From Bacteroidia bacterium (lineage in GTDB: Bacteria; Bacteroidota; Bacteroidia; M30B66): DNA of 64,000 nt. The first letter of the stretch is position 1. The number at the start of each line of letters is the position of its first letter. The stretch is from contig JAIBAI010000006.1 of assembly GCA_019695235.1 (NCBI GenBank), positions 1 to 64,000 on the forward strand. Direction: 5' to 3'. The position numbers were made by a program, and so were the translations under genes. Positions 23,540 to 32,317 of this stretch are shown piece after piece. The notes under the pieces are model-generated. The model was not told the DNA's origin and ran no database searches. It saw only the letters and a program-made list of their open reading frames with translations.

Positions 23540-25000
23540 ATGAATCATCTTTCTGATTTCTCTGAAGGACTTACCTATGACGATGTCCTTTTAGTTCCCG
23601 ATTACTCTGAAGTGCTGCCCAGAAATACGGATATCAGCACCCATTTTACCCGAACCATACGTTTAAACGTACCCATTGTGTCTGCTGCAATGGATACGGT
23701 AACAGAGTCAAGTATGGCAATTGCAATTGCACAGGAAGGTGGAATTGGCGTACTGCATAAAAATATGCCAATTGAACAGCAGGCGGCAGAAGTACGCAAG
23801 GTTAAACGCTCAGAGTCAGGCATGATTATTGACCCGGTAGTGGTACGAGAAGGTGCAATTGTAGCAGATGTGCTTCAGCTAATGAGAGAGAACAAGATCG
23901 GAGGTATTCCGGTAGTAGATGCCAACAACAAACTGGTAGGTATTATCACCAACCGCGACCTGCGCTTTGAGAAGCAAATGAACCGCCCGGTACACGAAGT
24001 AATGACACGTGAAAACCTGGTGACTACCACTGAAACAAACCTGGTTAAGGCTGAGGCAATATTACAGGAATACAAAATTGAAAAATTGCCGGTCGTTGAT
24101 GTTGATTACAAACTGGTAGGACTTATTACCTACAAAGACATTATTAAAAACCGCCTCCGACCGAATGCTTGCAAAGACGATTTTGGACGGCTACGGGTAG
24201 CTGCAGCCGTAGGCGTTACAGCCGACACAATGGCTCGTGTTGAAGCCTTGAGAAATGCCGCTGTTGATGCAATCATCATTGACACCGCACACGGGCACTC
24301 TAAAGGGGTGATTGATATGCTCAAAGAAGTAAAACGCAATTATCCTGATTTACAAGTGGTGGTTGGTAACATTGCCACCGCAGCAGCTGCAAGATTATTG
24401 GCTGACAATGGTGCTGATGCTGTGAAGGTGGGTATCGGCCCCGGCTCCATCTGTACTACAAGAGTGATTGCAGGCGTTGGAGTGCCGCAGTTTACCGCTG
24501 TGGTCGACGCCGCCCGCGAACTGAAAGGTACAGGAGTACCCGTTATTGCCGATGGGGGCATCCGTTTTTCGGGCGATATTGTGAAGGCCATTGCCGGAGG
24601 AGCTTCTACCATTATGGTGGGTTCGCTGCTAGCAGGAGTTGAAGAGTCTCCTGGTGAAACAATTATTTATGAAGGCCGGAAGTTTAAAACCTATCGGGGC
24701 ATGGGTTCTATCGAAGCCATGCAAACAGGCTCAAAAGACCGCTACTTCCAGGATGCAGAAGATGATGTGAAAAAACTGGTTCCGGAAGGTATTGTCGGCC
24801 AGGTTCCTTTTAAAGGTACGCTTGCAGAAATTCTTTATCAGATGATCGGGGGGCTGCGTGCGGGTATGGGCTATTGTGGCGCCCATAATATTGCCGAATT
24901 ACAAACCAAAAAAATCATCCGTATTACCAGTGCCGGTGTTCGTGAAAATCACCCTCATGACATCGTAATTACCCGCGAAGCACCTAACTACTCCCGGTAA
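23540..25000 (+). CDS. guaB: IMP dehydrogenase
   Basis: A 486-residue GuaB that oxidises IMP to XMP with NAD+, the rate-limiting step of GMP synthesis. The TIM-barrel catalytic domain is interrupted by two CBS domains (about residues 95-205: [17 protein letters not shown] and [17 protein letters not shown]). The catalytic loop is G-P-G-S-I-C-T-T-R with Cys305. A-D-G-G-I-R, Y-R-G-M-G-S and the C-terminal [11 protein letters not shown] follow. The TAA stop shares one base with the ATG of the next gene. Confidence 0.97.
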
Positions 25001-25815
25001 TGCCAATATTTCTTTCCGGTTTGCTGCTTTTGTACCTGGGCCTTTTTCCGGGCAGCATAATGGCACCTTCGGAAGAATGGCAAATACTTTGGAAAGTTCA
25101 GGCTAAAGGTACTGATATGTATGCCGATAATCTTGGCAATCCTTTCGTAGTCAATGGGGATGAACTAATTAAACTGCGTGATGATGGCCAATTATTCCGG
25201 CGATATAGCAATAAAACACTTGGGCATATTTCTTCGGTTGATGTGAGTAACCCATTGAAAATATTGGTCTTTTACAAAGATTTCTCCCGCATTGTTTTTC
25301 TTGATAATACATTGAGCGAAAATGGCACTGCAATTAACCTCGATGAACGTGACCTTGAACAAACCTCCCTTGTTTGTACCTCGTATGACAATGGCTTTTG
25401 GCTCTTTGAACCAGTGCACTTTCGCTTGATTCGCTTTAACCAGCACCTTCAGGAATCAGTCCGCGTACTTAACCTGAACCAGGTACTCAATGGCCCGCTC
25501 CAACCTATAGCCCTTTGCGAAAATGAGAACCGACTCTTTATGAATGACCCTCAGAGAGGAATTATTCTCTTTGATGTTTTCGGAACCTATGTTAAAACTA
25601 TCCCCCTTAAAGGAGTGCGTAAGTTTCAGGTGACTGGTGATATAATTATTTACGCAGACCAAGATGAGTTTCTGAAAATATTCAACCTGAAAACCTTACA
25701 GCAAACCCGGATAGAATTGCCAATTCAAATGTATGCGGATTGGCAATTCGAAAAAGAACGCTTATATATGCTTGCCAACGACAGTTTAACCGCATTTAAA
25801 GCACCCGGATTCTAA
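25000..25815 (+). CDS. Secreted beta-propeller-like protein of unknown function
   Basis: A 271-residue protein I cannot assign to a named family. It has a hydrophobic N-terminus (about residues 3-21) that looks like a signal peptide. The body is a series of about five beta-rich repeats with alternating hydrophobic strands and polar turns (for example D-N-G-F-W-L-F-E, N-R-L-F-M-N-D, I-I-I-Y-A-D-Q-D). This pattern suggests a small propeller related to NHL/YncE-type proteins. Its ATG overlaps the guaB TAA by one base, so it is co-transcribed and probably translationally coupled. It lies upstream of the Ddl fusion, which suggests but does not prove an envelope role. Confidence 0.75.
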   Translation: MPIFLSGLLLLYLGLFPGSIMAPSEEWQILWKVQAKGTDMYADNLGNPFVVNGDELIKLRDDGQLFRRYSNKTLGHISSVDVSNPLKILVFYKDFSRIVFLDNTLSENGTAINLDERDLEQTSLVCTSYDNGFWLFEPVHFRLIRFNQHLQESVRVLNLNQVLNGPLQPIALCENENRLFMNDPQRGIILFDVFGTYVKTIPLKGVRKFQVTGDIIIYADQDEFLKIFNLKTLQQTRIELPIQMYADWQFEKERLYMLANDSLTAFKAPGF

Positions 25816-25937: not shown

Positions 25938-28634
25938 ATGAAAATTAAAATAGGCATTTTATTCGGAGGTCGTTCGAAAGAACGCGAAATATCATTTGCA
26001 GGTGGCCGTACCGTTTACGATAACCTGAGCAAAAGCCTCTTCGAAGCCATCCCAATTTTTGTTGATAGTTTCAATAATCTGATTCTTCTTGATTGGGAAT
26101 ATATTTACAAAGGAAGCATTCGTGATTTCTACCCCTATCCTGATACCGTCACAGACAAAAATGGTGTATTTCAAGTATATGCAGAATCATTGGCAGAAGA
26201 TGATACCTCACTTCAGGAGCAGTTAATTAACCGCATCGGCAAGAAAATATTGGCCGAAGAACTAAAAAGCAAAATTGATTTTGCATTCCTGTGTTTGCAC
26301 GGTCCATACGGGGAAGACGGTCGCATCCAGGGCTTGCTTGAACATTTTCAAATTCCGTATTCCGGTAGTGGCATTCTCCCAAGCGCCATAGGTATCAATA
26401 AAGTGGTGCAAAAAAAACTCATGAGCAGCGCCGGTTTTAATACCCCTGCTTTTACTTGCTTAAGCAGAAAAAACTGGCTTGCTGCAGAATATGCGCTCCC
26501 GAAAAATATTTTGAATGAAATTCAATCTTCAATAAAATTCCCCTGCGTTGTAAAAGCACCTACGCAAGGCTCATCTATAGGGGTAAGTGTTGTAAATACA
26601 CCCGAACAGCTGCCTGCCGCCATTGATAAAAGCTTTTTTGTACGCCGGATAACAGGAAATGACTGGCTTCAAATGTCAGAAGACCTTCGCGTTGATTGGG
26701 TACGCACTACCGTTGATATTCGTGAGGGTATTGGGATACCTCTTTTGCTCAATACAAAAAAAATTACACACCCACTCACTTTGTTGCAGGCAATGACAGC
26801 ATTGGCCCGTGAAAATCCGGGGCAGATGATGTTACTTGAATCTTTAGATGCAGAAAGTGAGGTAATAATTGAGTCGTTTATCGAGGGCAAAGAATTTTCT
26901 TCTATCGTAATTGATGGCCCGCAAGGTAAGCCCGTTTGTTTGCCTCCGACCGAAATTAGAAAAGGCAAAGAGGTCTTTGATTACCGCTCTAAGTACCTCC
27001 CGGGCTTATCACGCAAAATCACACCCATCCAACTTCCGGATGAACAAATTCAAAAAATCAGAAGCACTTGTGAAGCCTTATATGATGCTTTGGGTTTTGG
27101 TGTTTACGCTCGGATTGACGGGTTCATTACAGCCAGTGGCGAGATCTTCCTGAACGACCCTAATACCACTTCGGGAATGATGCCCAGCTCGTTTTTCTTC
27201 CACCAGGCTGCCGAAATAGGGCTTAACCCATCTCAGTTCATTACATTTATAATTTACACATCTCTTTGGCGGCGTGCCGAAGAGTTTCGTTTTAATGGTG
27301 TAGTAGAACCGTTATTGATCCGGTTCGACCAACTGCTTGATAACCAGCATGCTGACGAGAAGAGGCGCCGGCGGATAGCAGTTGTCTTTGGCGGGTACTC
27401 TTCAGAACGGCATATCTCAGTAGAAAGTGGAAGAAATGTTTATGAAAAGCTCTCATCTTCCACAATCTATGAACCGGTTCCTTTGTTTCTCAGTGGTAAT
27501 GATGCACAACACGTTTTGCATACAATCCCGCTGAACCTGATGCTAAAAGACAATGCAGATGATATTCTTGAGAAAATTATGCATTATTCAGTACATCCCG
27601 TTATTGAGCAAATTATTCAACAATGCGAAGTAATAACCAAAAAATTTGGTGATACCGGTAATTTGAAACCCCCAAGATCTATTGAGTACGATGAGCTAAC
27701 ACAATCAGTTGATGAAGTATTTATTGCCCTTCACGGGCGCCCGGGTGAAGACGGAGCCCTGCAAAGAAAATTAGATCATGTTGGCATACCCTATAACGGC
27801 TCAGGTGCCGAAAGTTCGGCTGTAACCATTGATAAATTTAAAACCAATGAAATACTGAAAAGCCATGGTATGCTTGTTGCCGAGCACATGATTGTTACAC
27901 AGAACGACTGGCAACAAGACCCTAAAAGTGCATTACAACGCATTCACAGCATTGGCTATCCTGTGATTGCCAAACCGGTTGATGACGGGTGCAGCTCAGC
28001 AGTGAAGAAAATTCGGAATGATGCAGAATTAAATGCATTTGCACAATTAATTTTCCGGCAATCAGAAGTATTTGACCAACAGGCAAGTAGCGTTTTGCAT
28101 ATAAAACCAAAAGAAGAATTTCCAATGAAAAAACAGTTTCTGGTCGAAGCACTAATTGATGCTGACGGAGCAGAAACTTTCCTCGAAATTACAGGAGGTT
28201 TGCTTACCCGTTTGAGCCCTTCTGGAGAATTGATTTATGAGGTGTTTGAAGCATCTGAAGCCCTATCTGAAGGTGAAGTATTATCTCTGGAAGAGAAATT
28301 TCTTGCCGGTCAGGGTCAGAATATAACTCCCGCCCGCTATGCTAAAGACCCAATACGCCGTCAGGAAATCTCAAATATTGTAAAACAGCAACTTGAAAAA
28401 GCAGCTCGCGTACTGAACATACAGGGATACGCACGCATTGATGCTTTTGTGAGAGTCAGAAAAACCGGAGCTGTTGAAGTTATCTTCATAGAGGTAAATT
28501 CGCTGCCAGGCATGACGCCCGCTACCTGCATCTTCCATCAATGTGCACTTAATGGGTATAAACCTTACGATTTTATTGAAAAAATAATGAATTTTGCCAC
28601 AGATGCCGCTAAAGCAAGGCAACAACCGGCTTAA
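25938..28634 (+). CDS. ddl: Tandem D-alanine--D-alanine ligase fusion
   Basis: An 898-residue protein made of two complete ATP-grasp D-Ala ligase modules in one frame: about residues 1-455 and 478-885, joined by a short basic linker (K-R-R-R-R at 475-479). Module 1 has G-G-R-S-K-E, H-G-P-Y-G-E-D-G (121-128), G-S-S-I-G-V-S, omega-loop Lys352-Tyr353, R-I-D (392-394) and D-P-N in place of E-x-N (407-409). It also carries about 65 extra residues between the Gly-rich loop and the next Glu. Module 2 has G-G-Y-S-S-E, H-G-R-P-G-E-D-G, G-C-S-S-A-V, Lys787-Phe788, R-I-D (833-835) and E-V-N-S-L-P-G-M-T (852-860). Normal Ddl is a homodimer of about 300-360 residues that makes the D-Ala-D-Ala end of lipid II. 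Here a fused pseudo-dimer with two different active sites is likely. No other ddl is in the window. Confidence 0.9.
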   Translation: MKIKIGILFGGRSKEREISFAGGRTVYDNLSKSLFEAIPIFVDSFNNLILLDWEYIYKGSIRDFYPYPDTVTDKNGVFQVYAESLAEDDTSLQEQLINRIGKKILAEELKSKIDFAFLCLHGPYGEDGRIQGLLEHFQIPYSGSGILPSAIGINKVVQKKLMSSAGFNTPAFTCLSRKNWLAAEYALPKNILNEIQSSIKFPCVVKAPTQGSSIGVSVVNTPEQLPAAIDKSFFVRRITGNDWLQMSEDLRVDWVRTTVDIREGIGIPLLLNTKKITHPLTLLQAMTALARENPGQMMLLESLDAESEVIIESFIEGKEFSSIVIDGPQGKPVCLPPTEIRKGKEVFDYRSKYLPGLSRKITPIQLPDEQIQKIRSTCEALYDALGFGVYARIDGFITASGEIFLNDPNTTSGMMPSSFFFHQAAEIGLNPSQFITFIIYTSLWRRAEEFRFNGVVEPLLIRFDQLLDNQHADEKRRRRIAVVFGGYSSERHISVESGRNVYEKLSSSTIYEPVPLFLSGNDAQHVLHTIPLNLMLKDNADDILEKIMHYSVHPVIEQIIQQCEVITKKFGDTGNLKPPRSIEYDELTQSVDEVFIALHGRPGEDGALQRKLDHVGIPYNGSGAESSAVTIDKFKTNEILKSHGMLVAEHMIVTQNDWQQDPKSALQRIHSIGYPVIAKPVDDGCSSAVKKIRNDAELNAFAQLIFRQSEVFDQQASSVLHIKPKEEFPMKKQFLVEALIDADGAETFLEITGGLLTRLSPSGELIYEVFEASEALSEGEVLSLEEKFLAGQGQNITPARYAKDPIRRQEISNIVKQQLEKAARVLNIQGYARIDAFVRVRKTGAVEVIFIEVNSLPGMTPATCIFHQCALNGYKPYDFIEKIMNFATDAAKARQQPA

Positions 28635-28642
28635 ATCAAATT

Positions 28643-29443
28643 ATGTCGCTAAGGGAATTTATTAAATCCGGGTCTTTTTGGAAACATACCGCATTGGCGG
28701 CAGGGTCTGTCCTGCTTTTTCTTTTGGGATGCTTCCTGTTCCTTGATTTCTTTACCCTGCACAATGAGTACATGGAGGTGCCTGATTTTAAAGGGGTCTA
28801 TACACGTGACCTGGATAAATTTGTTTCTGGTAAAGACATTGAGTATGAGATTGTTGATTCGGTGTACAATGACAAACTACCTAAGGGCTCGGTGGTTGAC
28901 CAGGAACCAAAAGCTGCCGCGACTGTAAAACAAGGGAGAACGATTTATCTGACAGTGAATGCAAGGGTCAATAAAAAGGTAGCCATGCCGAATCTTATTG
29001 ACCTTTCACTCCGTCAGGCAAAGTCATTGCTTGAATCCTATGGCCTGCAAGTAGGTCGCCTGACATACGTGGAAGGCCTGCCACCAATTATGCACCAAAA
29101 CTTTCAGGGCAAGCCAATCGCCCCAAATACCCAGATAGACGTAGGTTCTTCTATTGACCTGGTACTTGGCCTGGGAAATAAAAACAGCCTGATTGCTGTG
29201 CCTGAACTTTTCGGGATGACCCTCAGCGAAGTGCGCTCAGTACTCCTTTCTGCCAACCTTTCTTTAGGTATGGTAAATAAGGATGAAACAGCTTCCGATA
29301 CTTTGTATGCAAGAGTATTCAGGCAAGCACCACAACCCAATAGTACAGATGGCTTATATGAAGGTGCCAGGGTAAATATTTGGCTCACCGGCTCAGAAGA
29401 AGTACTCGAATCAGAAAGCAAACAAAACATTCAAATTGAATAA
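28643..29443 (+). CDS. Membrane-anchored triple PASTA-domain protein
   Basis: A 266-residue protein with a short cytoplasmic tail, one membrane helix (about residues 16-36) and three successive PASTA domains: about 42-112 (M-E-V-P-D-F-K-G), 113-183 (A-M-P-N-L-I-D-L-S-L-R-Q-A) and 186-255 (A-V-P-E-L-F-G-M-T-L-S-E-V). PASTA domains bind peptidoglycan stem peptides. No kinase domain is attached, unlike PknB-type proteins. It starts eight bases after the Ddl fusion and overlaps the next gene by eight bases. Clustering with a D-Ala ligase and an RluD-type enzyme is familiar from Bacteroidota genomes. Confidence 0.88.
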   Translation: MSLREFIKSGSFWKHTALAAGSVLLFLLGCFLFLDFFTLHNEYMEVPDFKGVYTRDLDKFVSGKDIEYEIVDSVYNDKLPKGSVVDQEPKAAATVKQGRTIYLTVNARVNKKVAMPNLIDLSLRQAKSLLESYGLQVGRLTYVEGLPPIMHQNFQGKPIAPNTQIDVGSSIDLVLGLGNKNSLIAVPELFGMTLSEVRSVLLSANLSLGMVNKDETASDTLYARVFRQAPQPNSTDGLYEGARVNIWLTGSEEVLESESKQNIQIE

Positions 29444-31280
29444 AATTTATTTAATAACACTCTTACTTTCATTGTGTATCCATACTTCTGGGTCGCAACT
29501 GAATGCACAGGTTTTTACAGCACCATTGGGCTCGTACAGCACATTTGAACATGATAGCCCTCAGCGTGTAGTGCGCAGTGATCACGATACCCTCAATCTG
29601 CCTTTTATTGACGATTTTTCATACAATGGCCCCAAGCCTAATCCTGCAAAATGGATTGATGGAGGAACATTTGTAAATGCCGATTTCCCAATAAACCCGC
29701 CAAGTTGGGGGGTGGCTACTTTCGATGGTATTAGTGCATCCGGACAGCCGTACAGCAATGTACTAAGTCATGGAGCTGCTGATACCCTGACTTCTTTACC
29801 TATCCATTTAGCCTACAGCCCTGCTGATTCAATCTACCTGAGCTTCGCACTGCAACCAAAAGGGCGTGGAAACTTTCCCGAATATGTTGATACTTTCCTG
29901 CTCGAATTTAAAGTGCCCTCTGATACCGCCTGGCGCTGGATTTGGAGCTCAAAGGGAGAAGACTTTCCCCAAACTGATCGCCCCTTCAGAAAGGTGATGA
30001 TTCCAATAAATGACACCGCTTTTTTGAAGCATGGTTTTCAGTTCAGGTTTAGAAACTTTGCCCAGCTGAACGGAGCATGGGACCACTGGCACCTTGATTA
30101 TGTCAGACTCGATAAAGGCCGCTTTGCAAATGACACCCTGCTAATGGATTTTGCCTTTATGTATCGTGGCAAAAGCCTGCTAAATACGTACCAATCCATC
30201 CCTTTAAGTCATTTTTTAACTTCACCTGTAAGCCGTATGTCGGAGACTTTTGATATGGCATTGGTAAACAATACAATTGCACCTGCTACCAAATATTATG
30301 GCTACGAATTCTATAACCAGTTTGGACAGCAAGTGGATATGATAAGCCATAAAATTAAAGGCCCTATCCCTGCCCAACAGGAGTTCATCATGACCGAGCC
30401 TACAAAATACACCTATGGCGACCCTGGCCAGTCTTACCAATACGCTACGTATCAACTGGTACACATGCTCAATGAAAACAATGGTGATGTGATTCCTCAA
30501 AATGATACTACAAGTTATTTCCAGGTGCTGAGTAATTATTATGCGCTCGATGATGGTACTGCAGAAGAACGCATCGGACTTGAAAACGAGCAAGGGGGCT
30601 TCATTGCACAGCGTTTTGAAACTTTCCTGGGCGATACCCTGAAAGCGATTCAGTATTTCTTCAATGCTGTGAACGACGGGCAGATTGACCGCCCCTTTTA
30701 CCTTGCTGTATGGAGTGCCGGAAATAACAGCCCCGGAGCGCTGCTATATAGCCAGGGCCCTGTTCAGCCTTCTGTGAATGGATGGAATAAATTTACGAGT
30801 TACCCGCTTGACCAGCCCTTATTCCTGCCAGCAGGTTCGTATTATTTTGGCTGGATGCAGGAAAATGGCACCTCACTCAATCTGGGCCTTGACAGAAACA
30901 TCACCAGCAACGAGCGCATCTACTACAACCATACCGGCTCCTGGTTCAATTTTAACGCGCAATCAGGTACGCTCATGCTTAGACCTATGTTCCAAAAAGC
31001 AGAGGATACTTATGTTAACATCAGTTCACCTGAACCCCAATCAGGAACTTACCGTATTTTCCCCAATCCTTCAACCAGTTCGTTTAGGATAAGTACCGAA
31101 ACGCATGAGAAATTGCATGTCGGAATATATGATCAAACAGGAAGAAGGTTACTGTCAATACCCAATTACTTGCCTGAGGAAAAAATAAGCACAGATGCAC
31201 TCTCAACAGGGGTATATTTGGTGACGGTGGGTAATGGCATACACCAGCAGGTACTGCGTTTAACGGTTGTAAAGCCATGA
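29436..31280 (+). CDS. Secreted protein with type A T9SS sorting domain
   Basis: A 614-residue protein with a signal peptide (about residues 3-24, cleavage near L-N-A-Q), a beta-rich body and a C-terminal domain of about 75 residues. That domain matches the type A T9SS signal: Y-R-I-F-P-N-P-S, then V-G-I-Y-D-Q-T-G-R-R-L and S-T-G-V-Y-L-V-T-V, ending in a Lys-rich tip. It should be exported across the outer membrane by the PorKLMN/PorUV machinery and anchored or released. The body (about residues 50-230) looks jellyroll-like, but I recognise no enzyme motif. The start is TTG overlapping the PASTA gene by eight bases. No ATG is available before the signal peptide. The end overlaps the rluD-like gene by four bases. 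Confidence 0.85.
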   Translation: MNKIYLITLLLSLCIHTSGSQLNAQVFTAPLGSYSTFEHDSPQRVVRSDHDTLNLPFIDDFSYNGPKPNPAKWIDGGTFVNADFPINPPSWGVATFDGISASGQPYSNVLSHGAADTLTSLPIHLAYSPADSIYLSFALQPKGRGNFPEYVDTFLLEFKVPSDTAWRWIWSSKGEDFPQTDRPFRKVMIPINDTAFLKHGFQFRFRNFAQLNGAWDHWHLDYVRLDKGRFANDTLLMDFAFMYRGKSLLNTYQSIPLSHFLTSPVSRMSETFDMALVNNTIAPATKYYGYEFYNQFGQQVDMISHKIKGPIPAQQEFIMTEPTKYTYGDPGQSYQYATYQLVHMLNENNGDVIPQNDTTSYFQVLSNYYALDDGTAEERIGLENEQGGFIAQRFETFLGDTLKAIQYFFNAVNDGQIDRPFYLAVWSAGNNSPGALLYSQGPVQPSVNGWNKFTSYPLDQPLFLPAGSYYFGWMQENGTSLNLGLDRNITSNERIYYNHTGSWFNFNAQSGTLMLRPMFQKAEDTYVNISSPEPQSGTYRIFPNPSTSSFRISTETHEKLHVGIYDQTGRRLLSIPNYLPEEKISTDALSTGVYLVTVGNGIHQQVLRLTVVKP

Positions 31281-32317
31281 TAAATGCAGATGAAGATGAC
31301 GACCTGATTCAACAGGATTTTGACCAGGAATTATACGAACATTACCGCATTACGGTAGACAAAGGCCAGGAACTGCTCCGAATAGACAAGTTCCTGATGA
31401 ACCGCCTTGAATCAACCTCCAGAAACCGCATTCAGAATACCGCCCTGGCAGGCAATGTGCTGGTCAACCAAAAGTCAGTTAAATCAAACTACCGCGTTAA
31501 ACCGGGCGATGTTATTTCGGTTGTCTTCGCACACCCCCCGCGTGACCGTGAAATCATCCCTGAAAACATCCCAATCAATATCGTTTATGAAGACGAAGAC
31601 CTGGTGGTGATTAATAAAGATGCCGGACTTGTAGTACATCCCGGATACGGCAATTATACGGGCACCCTGGTAAATGCGATGGCATATCATTTCCAACACC
31701 TGCCATTGTACCAGAATAATCAACCCCGACCCGGCCTGGTACACCGGCTCGACAAAGATACATCAGGTATCATGGTGGTCGCCAAGAACGAATTTGCAAT
31801 GGCTCATCTGGCAAGGCAATTCTACGAGAGAACCTCCCGGCGTCTATATGTGGCAATGATTTGGGGCGAACCCAAAGAAGAAAATGGTACCATTACCGGA
31901 AACCTGGGACGGGATGTTCGTGACCGGAAAATGATGGCTGTTTACGCTGATCCATCACAGGGGAAGCATGCTGTTACCCATTACCGGATGCTTAAGTCTT
32001 TTGGATTTGTTTCAATGGTCGAATGTAAACTTGAAACCGGGCGTACCCATCAGATTCGTGCACACATGAAACATATAGGCCATCCCTTATTTAATGATAG
32101 CCTTTATGGTGGGAAACAAATCTTAAAAGGCACACGGAGTGCTTCCTACCGTCAGTTTATTGAAAACTGCTTTGAACTTATCCCAGGTCAGGCGCTGCAT
32201 GCAAAATCTTTGGGTTTTGCGCACCCCACATCAGGCAAAGAAATGTTCTTCGATTCTGATTTACCGGATGGTTTTGCGCAACTGGTAGATAAGTGGGAAC
32301 GTTTCAGACCCTCATAG
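31277..32317 (+). CDS. rluD: RluD-family 23S rRNA pseudouridine synthase
   Basis: A 346-residue RluA/RluD-type pseudouridine synthase. An N-terminal S4 RNA-binding domain (about residues 30-95: L-R-I-D-K-F-L-M-N-R-L...S-R-N-R-I-Q) is followed by the catalytic domain with H-R-L-D-K-D-T-S-G, where Asp159 is the nucleophile. G-R-T-H-Q-I-R-A-H-M motif lies near residues 255-264. The S4 domain and length fit RluD, but RluA, RluC and RluD paralogues cannot be separated safely by eye. The ATG overlaps the stop of the T9SS protein gene by four bases. Confidence 0.9.
   Translation: MINADEDDDLIQQDFDQELYEHYRITVDKGQELLRIDKFLMNRLESTSRNRIQNTALAGNVLVNQKSVKSNYRVKPGDVISVVFAHPPRDREIIPENIPINIVYEDEDLVVINKDAGLVVHPGYGNYTGTLVNAMAYHFQHLPLYQNNQPRPGLVHRLDKDTSGIMVVAKNEFAMAHLARQFYERTSRRLYVAMIWGEPKEENGTITGNLGRDVRDRKMMAVYADPSQGKHAVTHYRMLKSFGFVSMVECKLETGRTHQIRAHMKHIGHPLFNDSLYGGKQILKGTRSASYRQFIENCFELIPGQALHAKSLGFAHPTSGKEMFFDSDLPDGFAQLVDKWERFRPS

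Follow-up and report, generated by a model that had tools for sequence, protein, structure and literature searches.

What does a bacterium gain from two D-Ala-D-Ala ligase (Ddl) modules joined in a single polypeptide, when the active sites of the two modules differ? This question is raised by a gene at positions 25938-28634 (+ strand, as are all features given below) of the window, the 64,000-nucleotide stretch of a Bacteroidia bacterium genome that was analysed here. Ddl is essential, universal and targeted by drugs (D-cycloserine), and vancomycin acts on its product.

The gene consists of a single uninterrupted frame of 898 codons with two complete Ddl modules. This architecture had been proposed in a sequence-only reading of the locus and was confirmed by the frame and by Pfam, which found Ddl_N (PF01820) twice and Ddl_C (PF07478) in each half of the 898-aa protein, with bit scores of 167.5 (cut-off 34.6) and 200.5 (cut-off 24), respectively, both halves being matched. 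Half A (residues 1-450, 25938..27287) was delimited by Pfam, alignment and an AlphaFold2 model, and half B (residues 478-898, 27369..28634) by Pfam and by multiple, pairwise and profile-profile alignments; each comprises a Ddl_N and an ATP-grasp part and the two are 26% identical. According to the secondary structure of the model, the linker between them (27288..27368) is mostly one long helix (residues 456-476). Segment lengths and the helices and strands of the model revealed in half A a helical insert that ordinary Ddl does not have (approximately residues 234-305, 26637..26852). Between the equivalents of DdlB positions 154 and 180, half A has 98 residues versus 27 in DdlB, thus approximately 71 extra residues, close to the approximately 65 estimated earlier. 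Half B has extra segments too, and the inserts of both halves are conserved. An assembly join, a frameshift artefact and chance were ruled out, as the architecture and the active-site residues recur in 72 fused proteins. A terminator-like hairpin with a T-rich stretch lies in-frame at the end of half A (27262-27284, +); the region does not clearly contain more terminator-like sites than chance would give.

In the genome, which measures 2.83 Mb and is rated 100% complete, PF01820 matches nothing but the two halves of the fused protein, and the whole-genome search with this family found no separate second Ddl. Weaker PF07478 matches elsewhere in the genome were taken as other ATP-grasp enzymes, because none has the Ddl N-terminal domain. 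The fused ddl is preceded on the same strand by a dcw cluster of rsmH, an FtsI/PBP2-like gene, murE (DAP type), mraY, murD, ftsW, murG and murC, continued by ftsQ, ftsA and ftsZ (read from the sequence). Between this cluster and the fused ddl are yqeY, guaB (read from the sequence) and a 271-aa ORF. The latter (25000-25815, +), directly upstream of the fused ddl, belongs to no Pfam family, and proteins similar to it are encoded near the fused ddl in several relatives. Downstream follow a PASTA gene, a gene for a 614-aa protein and a gene for a RluD-like pseudouridine synthase (31277..32317), the last belonging to a ddl-PASTA-rluD order that is conserved whether the Ddl is fused or single. Most fused loci and many loci with a single Ddl retain the ddl-PASTA neighbourhood, frequently with rluD; in the latter, PASTA-rluD is often divergent. 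Since this neighbourhood is common to both kinds of loci, the fused gene occupies the ancestral ddl site. MurF and alanine racemase are encoded elsewhere in the genome and, because these are present together with MurE, MurC, MurD, MraY and MurG, a D-Ala-D-X dipeptide is needed; the fused gene is almost certainly its source for MurF. The genome has two MurFs (G000:C72:17977-20340 and G000:C18:43549-44793), one stand-alone and one fused to alanine racemase (835 aa). The pair was rejected as a sign of two dipeptides, since it occurs equally in single-Ddl genomes: a second MurF frame of approximately 800-880 aa is found beside the stand-alone MurF in fused-Ddl and single-Ddl genomes alike.

Subsequently, residues were compared in DdlB numbering between 72 fused proteins (that of the window and 71 from other assemblies) and 24 single Ddls of the same class, all 24 of which have S150, Y216, E270, P275 and S281. 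Half A keeps E15, H63, S150, S151, E180, E187, K215, Y216, R255, D257, N272 and S281, with either Lys or Arg at position K144 across the fused proteins. Its Ser212 (26571..26573), the canonical equivalent of DdlB Ser150, is invariant (72/72), and the alignment likewise places a canonical Tyr353 (26994..26996) at Tyr216. It departs at Asp407 (27156..27158), which takes the position of the Mg2+ ligand Glu270, and at Ser412 (27171..27173), which takes that of Pro275; all 72 fused proteins have Asp and Ser there versus Glu and Pro in 24/24 single Ddls. Half B keeps K144, E180, E187, K215, R255, D257, E270, N272 and P275. Here the departures are Cys685 (27990..27992) at Ser150 (C in 72/72 versus S in 24/24), Phe788 (28299..28301) at Tyr216 (F in 71/71 scorable rows versus Y in 24/24) and Thr863 (28524..28526) at Ser281, the contact of the acceptor carboxylate (T in 71/71 scorable rows versus S in 24/24).

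The motifs K352-Y353, D407-P-N and S412-G-M-M in half A and G-C685-S-S-A-V, K787-F788, E852-V-N and P-G-M-T in half B had been quoted in the sequence-only reading; they stand at exactly these residues, and the active-site differences it named are real, correctly placed and, by the alignment, fixed family-wide. The equivalence of Phe788 and Tyr216 rests on alignments, and the multiple, the profile-profile and the pairwise ones (the last to the DdlB Y216F mutant, 1IOW) agree. The Cys at Ser150 and the Thr at Ser281 of half B had been overlooked, as had the status of the gene as the sole Ddl. The deepest partial members of the family keep D270, C150 and F216 wherever those stretches are present; among the deep-branching partial members there is one with Thr at S151 (half A) and Gly at 153 (half B). 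Deep members seemingly without DPN or GCSS were rejected as a product of over-strict patterns, their sequences showing DPNTTSG and EGCS(S/A).

The positions concerned are known from studied enzymes. Ser150 and Tyr216 are conserved in Ddls making only D-Ala-D-Ala, and Ser150/Tyr216 replacement in DdlB leads to weak D-Ala-D-Lac activity (PMC7691350), while in lactic acid bacteria Phe versus Tyr at position 216 decides between depsipeptide and dipeptide activity (PMC5996685). Ser286 of the Burkholderia enzyme (equivalent to S281) contacts the dipeptide (PMC6899670), and the same work cites two Mg2+ as ligated by the residues equivalent to D257 and E270 (PMC6899670). With departures at the metal ligand in half A versus S150, Y216 and S281 in half B, half A thus combines a canonical substrate site with an unusual metal site, and half B the reverse. 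The equivalents of R255, which are R392 in half A and R833 in half B, and those of D257, K215, E187 and N272 are invariant in both halves. Furthermore, of 17 positions that we take, from general knowledge of DdlB structures, to be its ligand and catalytic positions, 15 are invariant in half A and 16 in half B, versus approximately one-third of all positions (p = 3e-6 and 1e-7, respectively). Invariance is thus much more frequent at these positions than elsewhere, and neither half is drifting. Judged by this conservation, neither half looks like a decaying pseudoenzyme, and both sites look functional and different.

We modelled the whole chain with AlphaFold2 using 44 family sequences. The mean pLDDT of 87.8 and pTM of 0.89 indicate that the halves are placed with confidence relative to each other. 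Foldseek matched the model to Ddl structures, e.g. 3I12 (TMt 0.77), the Y216F DdlB 1IOW (TMt 0.85) and LmDdl2 1EHI (TMt 0.76), and at rank 38 to the large subunit of carbamoyl phosphate synthetase (CPS, 1BXR; E 2.8e-20, TMq 0.47, rmsd 15.3), in an alignment that must span both halves because it has 1124 columns. The NCBIfam D-Ala-D-Ala models have cut-offs of 245.65 and 243; half A scores 233.7 and 231.5 and half B 162.8 and 166.3, each below, and the cut-offs are passed only by the summed halves. NCBIfam names obtained for the whole protein are misleading, because the scores of the two halves add, and a plain "D-alanine--D-alanine ligase" annotation is to be expected, because the sum passes cut-offs that neither half passes alone. 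The NCBIfam D_ala_D_lac model (cut-off 550) was not reached (half A 114.7, half B 99.0), nor were those for D-alanine--D-serine ligase (VanC/VanG; cut-offs 495-750), where the best score was 155.2 (VanG, half A).

A protein search of contigs found 68 relatives of the fused protein, nearly all full length, mostly in Saprospiraceae/Chitinophagales MAGs and also in other Bacteroidota MAGs and in the cultured Lewinella cohaerens DSM 23179. By hand count, approximately 100 of 217 well-completed genomes of the class have two Ddl_N matches attributable to the fused gene, with frames usually of approximately 860-1010 aa, and the remaining genomes have a single canonical Ddl; a fused and a separate Ddl were not seen together in any of the 217 genomes. 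Extra or odd Ddl counts were rejected as cases of co-occurrence: those in G065, G069, G075 and G206 are frameshift or contig-end pieces, and that in G070 is one gene matched in two pieces. In two assemblies the fused ddl is broken by a frame change (L157/L172 in G065, and L098), the pieces matching the fused gene; such changes could be sequencing errors or real disruptions. A half-B profile (E <= 1e-60) matched only frames of 899-1200 aa among 297 genomes of the phylum, with no free-standing module B. The families f44 and f53 each include genomes with the fused gene and genomes with the canonical single Ddl; thus the two replace each other. Replacement within one family points to gene exchange at an essential step. 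In the same families (G089, G071, G102 and G198 against G052 and G177) at least two types of canonical single Ddl replace the fused enzyme. The orthologous replacement, together with the sole-copy status, implies that the fused enzyme probably still supplies D-Ala-D-Ala.

To approach the origin of the halves, a maximum-likelihood tree was built from DdlB, 24 single Ddls and 22 halves of each kind (A and B). The A halves formed one clade (100/99), the B halves another (100/100), and A and B together stood apart from all single Ddls (95/85). Both clades sit on long stems (1.5 and 2.4 changes per site), so that long-branch attraction could underlie the grouping of A with B. The two halves share residues that are rare in single Ddls, among others F284, H285, P294 and Y253. 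The simplest reading of these sequences would be that the module was duplicated internally, long ago, before the lineage spread. The sequence-only reading, which had considered a pseudo-dimer, had suggested both a tree of the halves and a survey of other Bacteroidota; the separate A and B clades fit an old pseudo-dimer, and the wide distribution of the two-module architecture agrees with it.

The neighbouring PASTA gene (28643..29443) starts 8 bases past the stop codon of the fused ddl and encodes a membrane-anchored protein with two PF03793 matches and an N-terminal hydrophobic helix. At seven loci (L066, L070, L071, L077, L078, L079 and L091) we found triple fusions of Ddl, Ddl and a membrane helix with PASTA, 1210-1270 aa in length, among them that of Lewinella cohaerens DSM 23179 (L077, 8001-11765). 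Their tails of approximately 320-370 residues begin with a hydrophobic helix followed by a PASTA-bearing part and are equivalent to the neighbouring PASTA gene of the window, fused as a C-terminus; Pfam confirms the PASTA domain in the tails of L077 and L091. This suggests that the Ddl pair works with the membrane PASTA protein and, in the triple-fusion species, is tethered to it.

Based on the strict conservation of two different active-site signatures, the sole-Ddl status, the single origin of each half and the confident model, we tentatively favour two working ligase sites with different acceptors, a division of labour within a single-chain pseudo-dimer. The cell's only D-Ala-D-Ala ligase would have taken this form through an ancient internal duplication at the ddl-PASTA-rluD locus, and each half would bind Mg-ATP and be a working ligase site with a task of its own. 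Carrying the canonical substrate residues E15, H63, S150, K215, Y216, R255 and S281, half A would make D-Ala-D-Ala for MurF despite the unusual Asp at its second metal-ligand position. Half B, whose metal site is intact and which has C150, F216 and T281 around the acceptor, would use a different second substrate or serve under other conditions. However, a ligand-sensing half would also keep its ligand residues and conservation does not prove catalysis; moreover, E270D could cripple half A, given Glu in 24/24 of the single Ddls compared. We know of no second dipeptide from these bacteria, and no gene pointing to another acceptor was found in this analysis. In an alternative reading, one half is the working D-Ala-D-Ala ligase and the other a conserved regulatory half that binds ATP, D-Ala or the product and controls its partner. 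We regard this as possible if somewhat doubtful: each half departs at other places (half A at E270 and P275, half B at S281 and at both S150 and Y216), the conserved inserts and the well-defined single-chain arrangement (pTM 0.89) leave room for communication, and the PASTA sensor fusion in seven loci hints at regulation, but the invariance of R255, D257, K215, E187 and N272 in both halves goes beyond what simple ligand binding needs. A more specific form of two working sites is rather unlikely: D-Ala-D-Ala would come from half A, and from half B a second terminus, D-Ala-D-X, whose acceptor would be new to Bacteroidota. If true, it would mean that one bifunctional enzyme gives a whole bacterial lineage two different stem-peptide ends, and that some species hold this ligase at the membrane beside a PASTA wall-sensing domain.

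Many Ddls are dimeric, and the fact that canonical single Ddls replace the fused enzyme and never occur beside it would suit a fusion that is just a covalent Ddl dimer, both halves making only D-Ala-D-Ala and the changes being neutral or tuning. We consider this unlikely, as the changes fall on specificity and metal positions and are fixed in the family, unlike neutral drift, and each half taken singly stays below the NCBIfam cut-offs for D-Ala-D-Ala ligase. The sequence-only reading had proposed D-Ala-D-lactate as the product of half B, and the family-wide F788 does correspond to the Phe216 that marks the depsipeptide Ddls of lactic acid bacteria (PMC5996685); in addition, S150 and Y216 are both changed in half B, as in DdlB variants with weak D-Ala-D-Lac activity (PMC7691350). 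The genome nevertheless has no match to the VanX peptidase family (PF01427), and its two clear 2-hydroxyacid dehydrogenases (PF02826), the proteins classified when weaker matches are set aside, are SerA-like, scoring best to PGDH and far below all VanH/D-LDH cut-offs. Thus no VanH- or VanX-type gene was found at cut-off in the genome; Lm-type ligases do not need the VanHAX set. The half B score of 99 against a D-Ala-D-Lac ligase cut-off of 550, an omega loop unlike that of VanA and unlike that of canonical Ddl, and a Gram-negative outer membrane that already excludes vancomycin also speak against this product. The exchange between fused and canonical enzymes is what one would expect if the fused enzyme still supplies D-Ala-D-Ala. 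The proposal was not supported and we hold it to be very improbable. A sequential enzyme resembling CPS, with the product or intermediate of one half passed to the other, e.g. to form a longer peptide, would fit the tandem ATP-grasp architecture and the Foldseek alignment across both halves, but that alignment is loose (TMq 0.47, rmsd 15.3) and MurF needs a dipeptide, which makes this scarcely credible.

We found nothing relevant to a Ddl-Ddl fusion in the open-access literature and, as far as searched there, a lineage-wide covalent Ddl pair with two fixed and different active sites is undescribed; the sequences themselves are already public. Our data suggest that, in bacteria with the fused Ddl, a key step targeted by antibiotics is carried out or controlled in a manner that has not been described. 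The family provides a natural test of the roles of DdlB residues S150, Y216, S281 and E270; it also offers one for the existence, in Bacteroidota, of peptidoglycan termini besides D-Ala-D-Ala. Through the triple fusion, dipeptide synthesis is physically linked to a domain that senses the wall, which suggests that the neighbouring PASTA protein has a role throughout the phylum.

Several known systems resemble the fused enzyme in part. The CPS large subunit (1BXR) likewise has two paralogous ATP-grasp halves in tandem and aligns loosely in structure, but it acts on other substrates and superposes poorly (rmsd 15.3), whereas here each half is a Ddl. In the MurC-Ddl fusion (PRK14573/NF011171) a Ddl is likewise joined to a member of the peptidoglycan precursor pathway, namely MurC, in contrast to the second Ddl here, and the fused double Ddl scores 208 against a cut-off of 1015. 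With LmDdl2 of Leuconostoc (1EHI) and the Phe-type Ddls of lactic acid bacteria, which produce D-Ala-D-Lac, half B has Phe216 in common (PMC5996685), but it also has C150, T281 and another omega loop and is fused to a Tyr-type half, in a genome where no D-lactate machinery was found. DdlB/DdlA (E. coli 1IOV/1IOW and relatives) is matched by each half in fold, domain order and nearly all catalytic and ATP/Mg residues, and by the fused gene also in its genomic role as the only Ddl; the fused enzyme differs in being two diverged modules on a single chain, with D270 and S275 in half A, C150, F216 and T281 in half B, and large inserts.
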